Virus record (IMG/VR): IMGVR_UViG_3300037189_001491 | Coordinates: 1 to 25,347 of that record | DNA length: 25,347 nt | Origin: a virus | Direction: 5' to 3' (one strand) | Shown here: positions 2,785 through 9,414 of the stretch, in pieces | Numbering within the stretch: position 1 is the first letter of the stretch | Layout: each line of letters opens with the position of its first letter | The notes under the pieces: model-generated | Databases searched by the model: none | What the model saw: only the letters and a program-made list of their open reading frames with translations | Told to the model about the DNA's origin: nothing | Translations under genes and position numbers: made by a program

Positions 2785-5085
2785 TTAGTGAAGGCCATCC
2801 ACACCCATAACATATTTCATAAACCAATTTGGTTCCCATGAAGATTTCTTTTTAGGAGCTGGAGGTGTCTTAGGTCTTTGAGCAAGCGCTTGAGCACGGG
2901 CATTAGGATCTGCTGAAACTATGCCTCCGCCAGGATTATAAGGCATATTTGGTATATTTGGTTTTTTATTTGGTTGTAACAACGGAGCCATTAAGGTTTT
3001 TAACCATATAGGTTCACTGTTTGTTAGGTCGGGATTACCGGCAACAATCCACTTATTCCTCTTTAGGAATTCTAGAGGATCGATTTGCGTACCCCAGCCC
3101 CCTCCTCCTTTTCTTATCTCAAAATGTAGATGAGCACCAGTAGATTTACCATCTCTTGCATCACCAGTATCTCCACCAGAAAGCCCTATCAGATCACCTT
3201 TTTTAACGGCTTGTTCTTTTTGTACGTTGAGTTTGGATAGGTGTCCGTATGTAAAGTAAAGCCCTTCTCCTGCTTTTATTTGTACAGCAAGACCTTGTCC
3301 TCCATGTCCATCACCGCCTGGGCTTACTTTAGCGTACTCAATAATACCATCGGAAGCAGCGTACAGAGGTGTACCTGTAGGTACGCTTACGTCTACACCA
3401 AGATGTTTTTCCCAACTACCGTTGAGCATTCTGAAACCGTAACCACTAGTTATATTGCTGCCACTAACTTTGCCCCCGGTCATATTTGTAAACCCGGACG
3501 CAGTAATTAAACCACTATTAATTAAATTACGACCAGCATTTATTTCATTGACATTGATATTATTAGAAGATAACACACTCAATATACTAGACGCATAAGC
3601 TGGGTTAGGATTATATCCGTTCTTTACTAGAGCTTCAATTGCTTGCTGAGGAGTTAAGCCTTCTGGAATATTTTTATTCCATTTTTTAACATGTGCAGCA
3701 ATGGCATCGTCAATAGAGTTGTATTTTACATACATCTGCATCTGACCTGTGCCGTTATCACGTGCTACTACGTGAGGCTGACTCTCTACAGCATGTTGAC
3801 CAAACGGATTGTTAGACCCTGCAGGCATACGAGAACCATAACCAGATTCCCAAGCCCACTGAGCAGCAGTTATCTCCGGATATGGATCTCCTAACGCTAT
3901 TGCGCGATCCATTATATCTTTAAAATCATCACGTATATTGCCACTAGGCGTATAGTTACCTGTAACGTTACGTGTAAAGAAGTCTTTAGCACTCTGGAAG
4001 GCATTACCTAACCATGTTGTAAAGCTAGATAGCATACTAGACTGCTGCTGCCTAGCTCCGCCTGTAATAGCTTCTGATCCTGGAGCATTAGGTCTAATAA
4101 CCTTTACAGCATTAGCAGCATTCTTTACTAGCTGTTTAGATACTTTATCTTGTTTAGGTTCTTCTTTTTTAGGACGTATTCTTTTTTCGGCTTCTTCTTT
4201 TTTCTTAGTAAGATCCGCATTAGTACCAGTTATTTGTTTATCTGTAGTAGTCCCTGGCTTAGTATTTTTCTTTAGCCATTCTCTAGCTTTGTCAGAAGCA
4301 CCACCTCTGTTATTAGGCCCATAAGCGTCCCGAACCATTTTATAATAGAAAAGTGGATCGCCTTCTTGTGCTTTGTTTATATCTGCGTTACTGTAGTTCT
4401 TACCATCAATCTTCCAACCTGCTGTAAAGCCTTGTTCGTTATAGATAGGCTCCATACCATAACGTTTCAGACCGTTTGCCTGTTGCTGTTCTTCGCCTTG
4501 TGTAGATTTCATAAAAGAATCTAAACCGTAGACCATAGCAACTGTAGTAAGAGTCGCGAGACCAGCGAAGACAGCAGCTGTTAATGCTCCAGCACTAAGC
4601 ACTTCTCCCGCGGCCAGATCTACTAAATCGGTTATATCCGGACCGCCGTCGCCCCCTCCACTTAAATCTAGCTGTCCTAATTTTTCAGCTAGTGTATTGG
4701 TCTTCTCTGTTAAGGCGTTTAGATTTTCTGTAAACTCTGCAAAACTAAAAGATGTTAACCCGGAATTACTTTCAGCAGAACCTCCCGTGTTCTGCTCCAT
4801 GTAGGCTTCTTTTCTAGCAGACTCGAAAGAAGTTCTTTTAGCATCTTGTATTTTAATAAAGTTAGACGTATACGTCAGAACTTTATTAAATTCGTTTTCT
4901 ATATCAGTTAATGTATTTGAAATAGATGTATATGTCTGTTTGAGTGTGACAACTACAGGCTCTTCTGTTTTATCTTCAGAGGAACGTGTCCTTGTTTTTA
5001 CTTTATTAAGACGGATGATATTTACGATTTCTTGAATAGAATCGTCTTCAAGACCTTCAAAAATAACTTTATATTTGCTATCCAT
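2785..5085 (-). CDS. tail-interior protein with GH73-like glucosaminidase and M23 peptidase domains
   Basis: A 766-residue protein with four parts. The helical, coiled-coil-prone N-terminus is residues 1-140. A hydrophobic segment (about 163-187) follows a Gly/Asp loop. Residues about 385-510 look like a GH73/FlgJ-type muramidase: WAWESGYG gives the likely catalytic E413, followed by NNPFGQHA at 425-432. Residues about 540-672 form an M23 (LytM) zinc endopeptidase: HLGVD supplies H561 and D565, YGHL supplies H615, and AHLHFE supplies H652 and H654, so every expected metal and catalytic position is present. A basic, Pro-rich tail ends the protein. It is last in the leftward operon, after gp26/gp51 and the 562-residue protein, which fits a tape-measure or tape-measure-associated protein that opens the cell wall at infection. 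It could instead be a hub lysin. Domains are firm; the structural role is inferred. Confidence 0.85.
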   Translation of the reverse strand: MDSKYKVIFEGLEDDSIQEIVNIIRLNKVKTRTRSSEDKTEEPVVVTLKQTYTSISNTLTDIENEFNKVLTYTSNFIKIQDAKRTSFESARKEAYMEQNTGGSAESNSGLTSFSFAEFTENLNALTEKTNTLAEKLGQLDLSGGGDGGPDITDLVDLAAGEVLSAGALTAAVFAGLATLTTVAMVYGLDSFMKSTQGEEQQQANGLKRYGMEPIYNEQGFTAGWKIDGKNYSNADINKAQEGDPLFYYKMVRDAYGPNNRGGASDKAREWLKKNTKPGTTTDKQITGTNADLTKKKEEAEKRIRPKKEEPKQDKVSKQLVKNAANAVKVIRPNAPGSEAITGGARQQQSSMLSSFTTWLGNAFQSAKDFFTRNVTGNYTPSGNIRDDFKDIMDRAIALGDPYPEITAAQWAWESGYGSRMPAGSNNPFGQHAVESQPHVVARDNGTGQMQMYVKYNSIDDAIAAHVKKWNKNIPEGLTPQQAIEALVKNGYNPNPAYASSILSVLSSNNINVNEINAGRNLINSGLITASGFTNMTGGKVSGSNITSGYGFRMLNGSWEKHLGVDVSVPTGTPLYAASDGIIEYAKVSPGGDGHGGQGLAVQIKAGEGLYFTYGHLSKLNVQKEQAVKKGDLIGLSGGDTGDARDGKSTGAHLHFEIRKGGGGWGTQIDPLEFLKRNKWIVAGNPDLTNSEPIWLKTLMAPLLQPNKKPNIPNMPYNPGGGIVSADPNARAQALAQRPKTPPAPKKKSSWEPNWFMKYVMGVDGLH

Positions 5086-5096
5086 TGCCTATTACC

Positions 5097-6785
5097 TCAA
5101 TAATACAATACAGAAATATTGAAATCGCTCATAGGATAGTTTGGATCCGGAACATCTCCCATTCCAACAAAGCCAGGTCTGTTAGTAGGTATAAAGGAAG
5201 GCACTCTAGGTCTACCGGCCATATCTAAATTAGGCATATACGGTTCTTGCATTGCCGCAGTCTGAGCAATCTGAGCTTTTGTAATATCCGAACCAGGTGT
5301 GTTTGGATTTGATATTTGCATTCCGTTAATTTCTGGGGATGCCGCTGCAGAGGAGGTACCTGAACTAGCTGCCGACGCAACCGGTTTACTTTCTGATGTA
5401 GCATCTTGTCTAGTTTTACCTCCAGCATTATTATTTTCAGCAGGAGTACTGGTACTAGAAGGTGCTCCAGTGTTAGTTGTTTGTGCAGGTGTTGGAGTTG
5501 GAGTCGGTGCTGACTTAGCACTCTTTGGTGCAGGTGCGGGTTGTGTTAGAGAAGGTTTACTTGGTACTCTAAATACATCTGATAATAAACTAGTGGCAGA
5601 GGTAGAAACTATGTCAGATATACCTTTAAGTCTAGGATCACTATCTGCCTTATCTGGTGTTGTATTATATACCTTAGCGTATAAGTCTCTGGATATAGCA
5701 GCCACTAGAGAAGGAATTGCTTTAAGAGGACCCTCCATACCTGAACTAGCGTTAATACCAGCACCACTAATATCTCCACTAACAATATGCTCAGCAGCAA
5801 CTGTAGGATTAACACCCGGTGTGAGTATATCAGTAGCGCTTAAATTATTTTTATTAATAGTTTTAGCAAGCATATCCCGTGCCATTTGAGTAATAGCATC
5901 GTTTTGTGTTGTCTGCTTTCTAGAACCTATTTTATCTCCTGATATGGTCTCGCCAATTTCTTTACTTACAGTAGACTCAGGTACAGTATTATCTTTAGAT
6001 TCAGTATTATTGACTGCCTTTTGTGCAGAGGCTAAAGCGTATGGAGCGGCAGCTGCAAGAGTACCCGCAGTTAATACACCTCCAACCTTTAATGCTGTTA
6101 TAGCACCTTTGATGTATTTTCCATATCTGCTAGGTCTTTGTGGGCCGTTAGGACCTACAGCATCATTATTTTGATGGGGAAGATCTGTTATGCCAGATCC
6201 ACCTTGACCGGATATTAATTGTTCAACTACATCAGTTAATTCTGTAAAGGCTTCTGTTAGACTTACAAGAGCATCGTTAGCTGGTTGAATTTCCATGCCC
6301 TGAAATTCATCAGTAGACATCTGTGAAGCATCTTTAGCTTCCAACGTGTTTTCTTTGAAGGTACGCTTTGCCTGTTGTATTTCAGCTACTAGAAGTTCCT
6401 GTTGTTTTTTAGTCAACAGACCCATACTGCGCACAACCTTTAAAATAGATTTTAACTGTTGGTCAATGTCGGTTAAAGAAGGATCTTTAATTTTGTTTAC
6501 AGTATCTGGTGTATCTAAAGAAGGTAGATCTGCATTTCCTCCAGATTGCGAACCTTCCTTTAAGGCTGCGCCAACTGCACCAAAATTGTCAGTAAATTTA
6601 CCACCCAGGTCCATACCGAACCCAATGCTAAAAGAAGAGTCGAACTTACCTTTAATGTTTCTGCGATAAAACTTACGAGCACGCACCATTGCTCTTTTAC
6701 CTAAACGAGAGGTTCTCGTGGCAATAGATCTGCCTCCACGAAGTGCGGTACCTGCTAAACCTGCTAATTTACCATATATACCCAA
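5097..6785 (-). CDS. putative tape measure / baseplate hub core protein (gp29 position)
   Basis: A 562-residue protein with no catalytic motif seen. The N-terminus is very basic (residues 15-48, many Arg/Lys) and is followed by a Gly-rich patch. Helical, coiled-coil-like sequence covers about 104-192. A hydrophobic segment lies at about 227-254, and a low-complexity Pro/Ser/Thr/Ala region at about 405-485 includes a TPTPTP run. Tape measure proteins are typically helical with one or more hydrophobic segments. The gene lies 6 bases after the frameshifted gp26/gp51 reading frame, exactly where the tape measure gene follows G/GT in lambda-type tails, and its length is close to T4 gp29 (590). No gp29 sequence match could be seen, so the call rests on position and composition. 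Confidence 0.5.
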   Translation of the reverse strand: MGIYGKLAGLAGTALRGGRSIATRTSRLGKRAMVRARKFYRRNIKGKFDSSFSIGFGMDLGGKFTDNFGAVGAALKEGSQSGGNADLPSLDTPDTVNKIKDPSLTDIDQQLKSILKVVRSMGLLTKKQQELLVAEIQQAKRTFKENTLEAKDASQMSTDEFQGMEIQPANDALVSLTEAFTELTDVVEQLISGQGGSGITDLPHQNNDAVGPNGPQRPSRYGKYIKGAITALKVGGVLTAGTLAAAAPYALASAQKAVNNTESKDNTVPESTVSKEIGETISGDKIGSRKQTTQNDAITQMARDMLAKTINKNNLSATDILTPGVNPTVAAEHIVSGDISGAGINASSGMEGPLKAIPSLVAAISRDLYAKVYNTTPDKADSDPRLKGISDIVSTSATSLLSDVFRVPSKPSLTQPAPAPKSAKSAPTPTPTPAQTTNTGAPSSTSTPAENNNAGGKTRQDATSESKPVASAASSGTSSAAASPEINGMQISNPNTPGSDITKAQIAQTAAMQEPYMPNLDMAGRPRVPSFIPTNRPGFVGMGDVPDPNYPMSDFNISVLYY

Positions 6786-6791
6786 CGAGTA

Positions 6792-7669
6792 TTACCTTTT
6801 CTCTAACGCTTCTTTTTCTTTTTCTAAAAATGCCATTAACATTTCCACATATATTTCACGTTCAAAAGGCATCAAGTTTTCAATTTCAGATATAGAATAT
6901 TTGTGATGCTGAGCTAACGAAAATACTGTCTGGTAGTAATTCGCTAATGTATTATAACTCAGCCCCAGGTAAAAAAATCACTGAGCGTAGTTAGCTCAAT
7001 TACTCGGTTATTACCTAGTGAATTAGTATATTCGATCTTGTAGTACATCTTTGGAATACTACTAAAGAAATCTCGAATCTTATTGAATGTATTGATATCT
7101 AGACTGTCAAGAAATTCATTGACTTCTTCAACTGTCTGTTCTTCAATTGGATATACTGTTTCTACATCAAACACAGACTCAATACATGAACGTACTAGAT
7201 ACTCTACAAGATCAGTAGGAGTTGCGTTTTCAGGTGCTTTATTAAGAATGCTTACAGAAGGATACTTCATCTTAATACCTAAGGCATCGTTAATTTCAAT
7301 AATATTAGAAACCTTGTTATCCTGAAGCATTTCTACTTCTTCAAGATCAATGCTAAAGTCATACACCTTATCATCTTCGATATCCCGATAAGAAACATCG
7401 ATAACGTTATTAACAGAACGTGCTCTTAATTTAAGAAACAAGTATTCTAGATCAAATGTTGCTAGTGTATCAACATCGAATTTATCATCTTGAATACAAT
7501 TCTGTAGTACTTGCTTAATAGCCAGTACAATGTCTTTCTCAGAACCGGATTGCTGTGCAATAAGAAGAATCTTTTCTTCTCTAACAACAAAGGGTCTAAA
7601 CTTATATGACTTTCCTGTTGAAGGAACTGTCAAATCAAATAGTGGTTTGTCTATTTTAGGTAATGTCAT
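6792..7669 (-). CDS. gp26-gp51-like fusion made by -1 ribosomal frameshift
   Basis: After decoding residue 233 of gp26 at the T7 run (6971-6977) a -1 slip opens a frame of 59 more codons, YLGLSYNTLANYYQ onward, ending at TAA 6794-6792, for a 292-residue product. The -1 frame has a TGA immediately before the run and no ATG until codon 34 of the extension, with no ribosome site for an independent start. The extension is protein-like: a helical block with QHHKYSISEIENLMPFERE and a Lys/Glu-rich end, reminiscent of the small gp51-annotated proteins of marine T4-like phages and of the T half of lambda gpGT. As in lambda, it lies between the main chaperone and the tape measure candidate. The fusion is inferred from sequence, without protein data. 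Confidence 0.72.
6908..6963 (-). promoter_or_regulatory. nested stem-loop stimulating frameshifting
   Basis: Reading the - strand, GCTGAG (6963-6958) pairs with CTCAGC (6913-6908), TAGCG (6946-6942) with CGTTA (6919-6915), and TACT with AGTA inside these. The outer stem starts seven bases after the slippery run, the usual spacer length for -1 frameshift stimulators. Confidence 0.55.
6959..7669 (-). CDS. 26: gp26-like baseplate hub subunit / tail assembly chaperone
   Basis: A 236-residue protein matching the T4 base plate protein pattern (T4_baseplate family, T4 gp26): an N-terminal PLFDLTVPSTGKSYKFRPF strand pair, an EEKILLIA helix, then LRARSV and the DVSYRD strand. The C-terminal half is acidic and helical (EEQTVEEVNEFLDSLD). 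T4 gp26 (208 residues) acts in assembly of the central hub. The zero-frame product ends three codons after a run of seven T, where a -1 slip continues into a gp51-like frame. AAAGGA about 10-15 bases upstream is the likely ribosome site. A gp54-like gene precedes it and the tape measure candidate follows, the order expected of a tail-tube assembly module. Confidence 0.8.
   Translation of the reverse strand: MTLPKIDKPLFDLTVPSTGKSYKFRPFVVREEKILLIAQQSGSEKDIVLAIKQVLQNCIQDDKFDVDTLATFDLEYLFLKLRARSVNNVIDVSYRDIEDDKVYDFSIDLEEVEMLQDNKVSNIIEINDALGIKMKYPSVSILNKAPENATPTDLVEYLVRSCIESVFDVETVYPIEEQTVEEVNEFLDSLDINTFNKIRDFFSSIPKMYYKIEYTNSLGNNRVIELTTLSDFFTWG
6971..6977 (-). promoter_or_regulatory. slippery heptamer T-TTT-TTT for -1 frameshifting
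   Basis: In the gp26 frame the bases read GAT TTT TTT ACC TGG GGC TGA. Both TTT codons can re-pair one base back without mismatch. The stop follows three codons later. Confidence 0.75.
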
Positions 7670-7755: not shown

Positions 7756-8364
7756 TCAGCTTATAGGTTTAGTTTTCACATCTCCCGTATATGTTATTTT
7801 AAAATCTGTGTAATTAAACTGAATAGGTAATCTGATAATTTCTGATTCGGATCCCCAGTTTAAATCTATAGATGGTAGAAATTTAGGATAGGCTCTAAAC
7901 ATTGTTACTGATAAAACTTTTTTGCCAGATTCTGGATCTTGCGTTGTGTCGTATACGTCTATAGTTATATCCGCATTGTAATAGTCCTTATAACCTACTT
8001 CATAAGATTGCTTGGTCTGACCCAAGGATTCAAAGCCTACAATACTATTAACCCACTTATAAAAGAATTCGTATACTTTGCCTTCTGCGTCTAGAATGAA
8101 TACTAGATTAACATCGTCAAACGTAACACCATATGGAACACCTTCCATTGGTCCATAACCTAGTCTAATACCTACATTATCTGCTGTAGCAAATGCCATG
8201 CCAGGCAACTGTGCTTGTTCACAACGTATAGTTATTTGATCCGCCTTTGCAAGCCCCGGATCATTTTTTAAATATTTAGGTATAGTGATAGAAGCTAAGA
8301 ATCTATTAGATCTCATAACTCCCTTAGTAGAAATCTCTGAGTTAAACTTCTCAATATTAAACAT
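7756..8364 (-). CDS. 54: tail-tube-fold baseplate protein, probably gp54-like
   Basis: A 202-residue protein. The N-terminus (MFNIEKFNSEI followed by GVMRSNRFLASI) runs parallel to T4 gp54 (MYSLEEFNNQA, then an RNNMF motif). The QAQLPGMAFATAD loop is typical of tube-type beta-barrels, and the FFYKWVN helix and a C-terminal FNYTDFKITYTGD strand also fit the tail tube fold shared by gp19, gp48 and gp54. In T4, gp54 (320 residues) sits on the hub with gp48 and starts tube polymerisation. The protein is shorter here, so it could instead be another tube-fold protein. The ATG lies 2 bases after the stop of the preceding gene. An in-frame open stretch follows its TGA. Confidence 0.6.
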   Translation of the reverse strand: MFNIEKFNSEISTKGVMRSNRFLASITIPKYLKNDPGLAKADQITIRCEQAQLPGMAFATADNVGIRLGYGPMEGVPYGVTFDDVNLVFILDAEGKVYEFFYKWVNSIVGFESLGQTKQSYEVGYKDYYNADITIDVYDTTQDPESGKKVLSVTMFRAYPKFLPSIDLNWGSESEIIRLPIQFNYTDFKITYTGDVKTKPIS

Positions 8365-8366
8365 GT

Positions 8367-8957
8367 TTAACCTATAACCTTTTTGCTGTTAGCCCATACC
8401 TGAGTCTTAGATGCCTTAGTAAATCGTTCAGTAGGCAGAAATAAAGCTATATCCCATTCTGATGGATAAACATAATAGAATTGTGTTTGTACGTGATTTA
8501 TAAGATACTGTTTAACACAAGGTTTAAAATATTCAAACTGTGAAGCACCGTTTAAAGCATCATAACTTAATTTTAATTTAGTAGATTCATCATATCTAGT
8601 ATTGTTTTTTAAATCATATAATGCGTCCATTAGTATAGCACGATATGTTAGAGGCAGGTAGTGTAAGTTAATACCCCAGAATCTACCACGCTCTACTTTA
8701 AAGGGAAATATTAAAGGAAATCTATCATAGAATGGCAGAGTATCTTTATGCTTAGGATCGTACACATACATGTACATATTACCAGGCTTTAATGTATTAG
8801 TTAATCTCTGAGTATCATCTTTCATTAACTTCTGTTCACTAACACTACCATAACTAGAAGCAGCATCTCTATACCATTTACGTGCGCTATCTGTACGTGA
8901 AGGAATCTGCCCTGCACGAACACCTTTTGTTAGAATAGTATCAAATACACCAGCCAT
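8367..8957 (-). CDS. unidentified virion-region protein
   Basis: A 196-residue protein I cannot assign to a T4 gene. Seen in it: an N-terminal helical part (about 1-55); then MYMYVYDPKH and LPFYDRFPLIFPF at about 61-86, where a Tyr/Pro-rich strand pair begins; FWGINLHYLPLTYRAILMDALY (about 93-114); a KPCVKQYL segment; and WDIALFLPTERF near the C-terminus. The mix of beta strands with a conserved-looking YLP turn suggests a compact structural or DNA-interacting protein. It lies between gp4 and the gp54-like gene in the leftward operon, so a role in head completion, DNA packaging ends or baseplate is possible. No membrane segment or catalytic motif was seen. Confidence 0.75.
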   Translation of the reverse strand: MAGVFDTILTKGVRAGQIPSRTDSARKWYRDAASSYGSVSEQKLMKDDTQRLTNTLKPGNMYMYVYDPKHKDTLPFYDRFPLIFPFKVERGRFWGINLHYLPLTYRAILMDALYDLKNNTRYDESTKLKLSYDALNGASQFEYFKPCVKQYLINHVQTQFYYVYPSEWDIALFLPTERFTKASKTQVWANSKKVIG

Positions 8958-8973
8958 TAAACAATAAATTCCT

Positions 8974-9414
8974 TTAAAAAGTAAGTCCGAGATCTTTTTC
9001 AGTTATGATCTGAAACTTCCAACCTCTATCTTCACAATACGCTTCTGCGTTTTTCCATTTGGCAGAATTAATACCCCATGTCTGCACTTCTGTTATATAA
9101 CGCCTATTAGGTTTATTTTGTACTGTAGGCGGCTTAGTTTGTGCAAACGGTTTAACTTCAATTATTACATTTTCAATAGTACCGTCTGGATTTCTTTTCT
9201 TCATATAAAAATCAGGAAAGTATCTATGTCGTCTGTTATCTATTGGACTTATGTAAGGTATAATAATTTCTTCTGAGGACCATTCGAGTATATCAGGATG
9301 TGAATCGAACTTCTGCATAACCATTAGTTCCCACCTACTACGATAAATAATCTTAGTTGGATCTCCTCTATACTTCTGAGGATTCTTTGGTTTGAATGTT
9401 CCTTTATATGCCAT
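8974..9414 (-). CDS. 4: gp4-like head completion protein with TnsA/PD-(D/E)XK nuclease fold
   Basis: A 146-residue protein closely following T4 gp4 (about 150 residues): a KGTFKPKNPQKY N-terminus, YRSRWELMVMQKFD with E29, the EWSSEEIIIPYISP block, HRYFPDFYM with D68, IIEVKPFAQTKPP with E86 and K88, and WKNAEAYCEDRGWKFQIITEKDLGL at the end. E29, D68 and E86-x-K88 fit the active-site pattern of TnsA-type endonucleases. In T4, gp4 is needed to finish the filled head before tail joining. It is the first gene of the leftward operon, transcribed from the bidirectional promoter at 9470-9485. Identity is strong; whether it cuts DNA is unknown. Confidence 0.9.
   Translation of the reverse strand: MAYKGTFKPKNPQKYRGDPTKIIYRSRWELMVMQKFDSHPDILEWSSEEIIIPYISPIDNRRHRYFPDFYMKKRNPDGTIENVIIEVKPFAQTKPPTVQNKPNRRYITEVQTWGINSAKWKNAEAYCEDRGWKFQIITEKDLGLTF

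Follow-up and report, generated by a model that had tools for sequence, protein, structure and literature searches.

The stretch analysed here (the window) comprises the 25,347 bases of an IMG/VR record of an uncultured virus and carries T4-like tail genes; the features of interest, all on the minus strand, are collected in Table 1. The gene for gp26 is flanked upstream by the tail tube gene (phrog_45) and downstream, beyond the extension in the −1 frame, by a gene of tape-measure size. The original prediction had likened the succession of chaperone, frameshift extension and tape measure candidate to that of lambda; the order holds, whereas the identity of the last gene is argued for by position and size alone, and we refer to it as a tape measure candidate. 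Comparison of its product with the T4 gp29 profile gave no significant match (hhalign probability 0.2%), and no family match was found either. It apparently starts with TTG at 6785, and TTG or GTG is seen there in several relatives too. The protein encoded directly after it, with its M23 peptidase and glucosaminidase domains, is likely to be a tail-borne cell-wall enzyme, and the gp4-like head closure protein encoded further upstream carries a TnsA-like nuclease N-domain (PF08722, E 2e-23).

Table 1. Features of the window around the gp26 gene.
Feature	Position	Strand	Basis or remark
gp4-like head closure protein	8974-9414	minus	
DNA end protector	8367-8957	minus	
Tail tube protein	7756-8364	minus	phrog_45 tail tube E 6.6e-30, PF23849 E 2e-18; directly upstream of the chaperone gene
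gp26, zero frame, predicted short-form tail assembly chaperone, 236 aa	6959-7669	minus	PF12322 and phrog_150, AF2 fold
Slippery heptamer T TTT TTT (zero frame GAT TTT TTT ACC)	6971-6977	minus	conserved heptamer, codon statistics
−1 frame extension, 59 codons, gp51 C-terminal (T-like) domain	6795-6971	minus	phrog_634, pN/pS; stop TAA 6794-6792
Hairpin after the slip site, outer stem 6963-6955/6916-6908 (9 bp in the window) and inner helix	6908-6963	minus	pairing, covariation
Tape measure candidate, 562 aa, TTG start	5097-6785	minus	position and length only; directly downstream of the extension
766-aa M23 peptidase/glucosaminidase protein	2785-5085	minus	domain matches

The 3′ end of gp26 reads AGT GAT TTT TTT ACC TGG GGC TGA, with the stop codon at 6961-6959, and the run of seven T that had been put forward as permitting a −1 slip is correct to the base. 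The −1 frame is closed by a TGA at 6980-6978, immediately 5′ of the run; after the run it is open for 59 codons, from TAC at 6971-6969 through AGG to the terminating TAA. The first ATG of this frame is at codon 34 and there is a TTG at codon 33, with no ATG, GTG or TTG earlier; the coordinates given previously for the upstream TGA, the open codons and the first ATG all hold. The predicted fusion would be of ∼292 aa, made up of 233 gp26 residues, through the second Phe, and 59 extension residues, and its predicted junction peptide contains ...LSDFFYLGLSYNT.... Among the 20 genes of the window, gp26 is the only one with an X XXY YYZ heptamer within its last 11 codons, and in-frame T TTT TTN occurs only twice in 7,418 codons.

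Relatives were gathered from IMG/VR and from records of sequenced phages. Outside the T4 type, 269 loci have both parts, and clustering at 85% reduces these to 107 non-redundant lineages. The extension lies in the −1 frame relative to gp26 in all 269 loci, and T TTT TTN is present at the end of gp26 in 105 of the 107 lineages (71 TTTTTTC, 33 TTTTTTT and 1 TTTTTTG), such that alignment of the relatives, proposed originally as a check, finds both the T run and the two frames conserved. The codon that precedes the Phe pair specifies D, S, N, A, T, G or H, but its third base is T in 105/105, and the first Phe codon is TTT in every one of these lineages; measured against the genes' own codon use, and with shared ancestry ignored, the invariant third-position T and the invariant TTT have log10 P values of −26.1 and −24.8, respectively. 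Other Phe-Phe pairs in the same genes show T TTT in just 3/105, being mostly TTC TTT. T4-type phages provide a natural control on sequence grounds: their gp26 genes end, where readable, in GAG TTC TTT or similar, with no T TTT TTN, and there the gp51 domain and extension lie in one frame. Two aberrant loci were seen: in one (L071:3640-3680), a change of frame ahead of the slip site, itself intact, cuts gp26 short by some ten codons, reflecting either a sequencing error or a broken gene; in another (L200:1980-1990), an in-frame stop interrupts gp26 at position ∼166, and the remainder of the gene is intact, as is its slip site.

Structure 5-9 nt downstream of the heptamer, as is expected of −1 frameshift sites, is present. 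The stem originally drawn with 6963-6958 paired to 6913-6908, beginning 7 nt past the T run, is real (MFE −18.3 kcal/mol, z −3.1, with 0/200 shuffles as low), although the sequences of the clade better fit a somewhat different drawing, in which the outer stem measures at most 10 bp and the inner helix at most 7 bp. In this arrangement, 85.8% of the cells are paired, versus 27-41% in slid controls, and compensatory changes occur at six pairs, giving a covariation score that 0/500 shuffles reach; some close relatives (e.g. L021 and L026) lack the hairpin. In the S-PM2 clade, nearly the same place is occupied by a hairpin of another kind, of 14 bp, which also shows a compensatory C-G to U-A change. 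Across the 105 lineages, a 50-nt folding scan peaks at a mean z of −1.63 at 4 nt past the heptamer, against values of ∼0 to −0.8 away from the site, and with 66-nt windows the mean z is −2.3. Additionally, a Shine-Dalgarno-like GAGG or GGAG lies upstream of the heptamer in 48/105 lineages, in 44 of them starting 13-15 nt before it, versus 4.7% of control windows; the Glu at this element is encoded by GAG in 38/54 cases, compared with 31% elsewhere (P 2e-9). In Escherichia coli dnaX, the A AAA AAG heptamer is likewise preceded, by ∼10 nt, by a Shine-Dalgarno-like element and followed by a hairpin. Many of the lineages match this geometry, whereas GAGG/GGAG upstream of the heptamer is absent in the window and its clade; such an upstream stimulator is optional, and not defining, for −1 programmed frameshifting.

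By profile matches, the gp26 of the window belongs with PF12322 T4_baseplate (E 4e-54) and phrog_150 (E 1e-57), and the extension matches phrog_634, ‘baseplate hub assembly catalyst’ (gp51; E 2.5e-24), as well as the C-terminal end of phrog_150. PF12322 is matched by both T4 gp26 (E 5e-63) and T4 gp51 (E 4e-52), whereas the phrog_634 part is reached by gp51 only; thus, gp51 is a gp26-like protein with the extension added, and gp26 the form that lacks it. Matched directly against each other as profiles, the window family and T4 gp51 give E 2.7e-7, in line with this. These matches identify T4 gp26 as the short form and T4 gp51 as the long form, encoded by separate paralogous genes, an arrangement shared by close relatives of T4. 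Accordingly, the two T4 proteins, both hub assembly chaperones, are homologous to the window short form and to the domain plus extension, respectively, but in T4 they are encoded by two divergently transcribed genes with no slip site. In a tree, T4-type gp26 and gp51 are placed together by a branch of weak support (84/55), which is compatible with, although not proof of, a single gp26/gp51 duplication.

The AF2 model of the window gp26 has a pLDDT of 88. Its N-terminal domain (residues 1-95) superposes on 3FGX (Z 7.9, rmsd 3.8, 86 aligned), on the tail assembly chaperone (TAC) of HK97 (2OB9; Z 7.0, rmsd 4.0, 84 aligned) and on YqbN (3KLU; Z 6.6, rmsd 4.3, 85 aligned), a TAC-type protein; a fold match with Z below 8 may reflect a common arrangement and is insufficient alone. 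The next entry among a thousand candidates has a Z of only 2.8, and the presence of both the HK97 chaperone and YqbN in the top rows is hard to put down to chance. The modelled N-terminal domain therefore has a TAC-like fold. A model of a T4-type gp51 (pLDDT 90) presents the extension as three helices (residues 207-248); a fold search of the PDB with it gave no clear match, the best being VIA (Z 3.6), and no solved structure matches T4 gp51 by sequence. Taken together with the paralogy of T4 gp26 and gp51, the TAC-like domain suggests that the window locus is the G/GT system of a T4-like phage. The locus would share with lambda a −1 slip near the gene end, short and long forms from one gene and a TAC-like N-domain, and its chaperone gene lies beside the tape measure candidate as that of lambda lies beside the tape measure gene. 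It differs in its heptamer, that of lambda being G GGA AAG, and in belonging to a contractile-tailed T4-like phage; no match to TAC families was seen by sequence.

The reading that we favour, with a probability of about 0.93, is that one gene yields two chaperones because some ribosomes slip back one base at the seven Ts; comparative evidence supports the −1 programmed frameshift, from a gp26 chaperone into a gp51-like tail by the logic of lambda G/GT, that was originally predicted. Most ribosomes would read gp26 to its TGA and produce the 236-aa short form, equivalent to lambda gpG. In a fraction of them, the P- and A-site tRNA-Phe on TTT TTT would slip together one base back, presumably aided by the hairpin starting 7 nt downstream, and the slipped ribosomes would then decode the 59 codons of the −1 frame to give the long form of ∼292 aa, equivalent to gpGT. 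The two forms would share their N-domain, as they would in T4, by way of the −1 frame here and of two genes there. In lambda, the chaperones gpG and gpGT, a short and a long form, come from one gene via a −1 slip near its end (Xu, Hendrix and Duda 2004, as presented by Atkins et al. 2016, PMC5009743); gpG attaches to the tape measure protein, and gpGT connects that protein to tail tube subunits (PMC5009743). By analogy, the abundant short form may coat the tape measure protein; tail tube subunits may be recruited by the extension of the rarer long form, and both forms would be gone before the tail is completed. The chaperone gene comes right after the tail tube gene, a position that fits such a link between the long form and tail tube subunits. 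We infer the slipping itself, its rate and the binding partners.

The extension could instead be a separate small gene (gp51) that is translated by coupled re-initiation at or near the gp26 stop, the T run serving only to encode the conserved Phe-Phe. Indeed, GenBank lists the extension as its own CDS in every inspected annotated record that calls it, TAATG or TGATG overlaps occur in Cr30, D486, PG216 and Atu_ph04, and two Ackermannviridae keep the frame and have a TAATG where the heptamer is missing. Moreover, in 48/105 lineages the extension frame has an ATG, GTG or TTG between −8 and +8 nt relative to the gp26 stop, so that some of them could use re-initiation alongside, or in place of, slipping. 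However, ATG is absent from the extension frame upstream of the slip and from the first 15 extension codons in 61/105 lineages, and ATG, GTG and TTG are all absent there in 41/105; conservation of Phe-Phe cannot explain the invariant third-position T and TTT; in T4 gp51, furthermore, the extension is fused to a gp26-like domain, and a separate long gp51 that is a full gp26 paralogue plus extension fits the G/GT reading. In the window, the first start is at codon 33, and codons 3-33 nevertheless show conservation at the protein level: among 21 sequences of the clade, this segment, which precedes the window ATG, has a pN/pS of 0.17 (bootstrap 95% 0.10-0.26), whereas the other two frames of the same DNA have values of 1.4 and 1.7 and are closed by stops in every sequence. 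Judged by these substitutions, translation is already under way in the extension ahead of its first start codon, and the extension is under purifying selection. For the window, the lack of starts and the pN/pS values lead us to reject a separate small gene, which we consider very unlikely.

It is hardly credible that RNA polymerase slippage on the T run joins the frames in place of ribosomal slipping. The homopolymer of seven T in the window would suit it, but most lineages have only six (TTTTTTC), which is short for known polymerase slippage, and the zero-frame X XXY YYZ phase, the hairpin at a fixed distance and the GAGG element typify slipping by the ribosome. A homopolymer indel in the assembly that splits one intact gene might be suspected of any metagenome contig with a T7 run; all independent contigs and finished isolate genomes show the same arrangement, and the T run is kept both in the finished genomes of phage isolates and in independent contigs whose gp26 identity is 50-71%. 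A sequencing error, which the original prediction had named as a hazard, is therefore excluded for practical purposes, and its likelihood is next to negligible. The other finding that would have told against ribosomal slipping, namely a separate ATG-started gp51 or an unconserved T run in relatives, was encountered only in the two Ackermannviridae.

These are Vibrio phages 1.244.A (L094:1880-1930) and D510 (L095:1745-1795), in which gp26 and the −1 frame extension are kept and T TTT TTN is missing. Their gp26 genes end in CTT TTT CGC TAATG and CTT TTC AAG TAATG, respectively, and coupled re-initiation has perhaps replaced slipping here. A search of IMG/VR with Ackermannviridae gp26 found no relatives, so the exception rests on two phages. 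A wider scheme can be offered tentatively, at somewhat short of even odds. Ancestrally, the T4 superfamily would have made its long chaperone by frameshifting, the process being adjusted by hairpins particular to each clade and, in roughly one lineage out of two, by a dnaX-like Shine-Dalgarno element. Two replacements would have followed: in the T4 lineage, the gene would have been duplicated and its slip site lost, and in the Ackermannviridae the TAATG stop-start overlap would have taken over.

A 2016 review described G-T frameshifting as conserved in long-tailed phages ‘except T4’ (PMC5009743). The tail assembly chaperones of T4-like phages have since been identified by Vladimirov, Gautam and Davidson (2022, Virology 566:9-15). 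Citing papers credit them with two findings, namely that short-form TAC genes of T4-like phages carry poly-T −1 slip sites and that some of these phages have one short and one long TAC gene (PMC10885494, PMC12846349). As far as these citing papers describe them, the genes and the mechanism are the same as those of the window. Given that credit, the central claim is already published, as is the link drawn in the original prediction between T4-type gp26/gp51 and the frameshifting tail chaperones, which our data support. The window locus is thus a well-supported further example of a frameshifted T4-like chaperone, of a kind already known; new at most are the window clade, the quantified conservation, the hairpins, the upstream element and the two Ackermannviridae with TAATG, and it may be that the stimulators and the Ackermannviridae replacement have so far gone unreported.

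Annotation lags behind, since the joined frameshift gene is shown in none of the annotated phage records inspected (L084-L105): the extension appears as its own small CDS with varying starts, or is uncalled, as in Cronobacter S13 (L092) and Agrobacterium Atu_ph04 (L101). In 2010, the gp51 of cyanophages and marine vibriophages was described as missing ∼200 N-terminal residues, with frameshifting unmentioned (PMC3037559). With the present reading, hundreds of T4-like genomes could be annotated by one rule, under which the short ‘gp51’ of cyanophages and marine vibriophages would be the second half of a frameshifted gp26 and not a shortened gene. It would also place T4 gp26 and gp51, whose part in hub assembly was long obscure, in the G/GT scheme, and a single frameshifting gene should replace both of them in T4.
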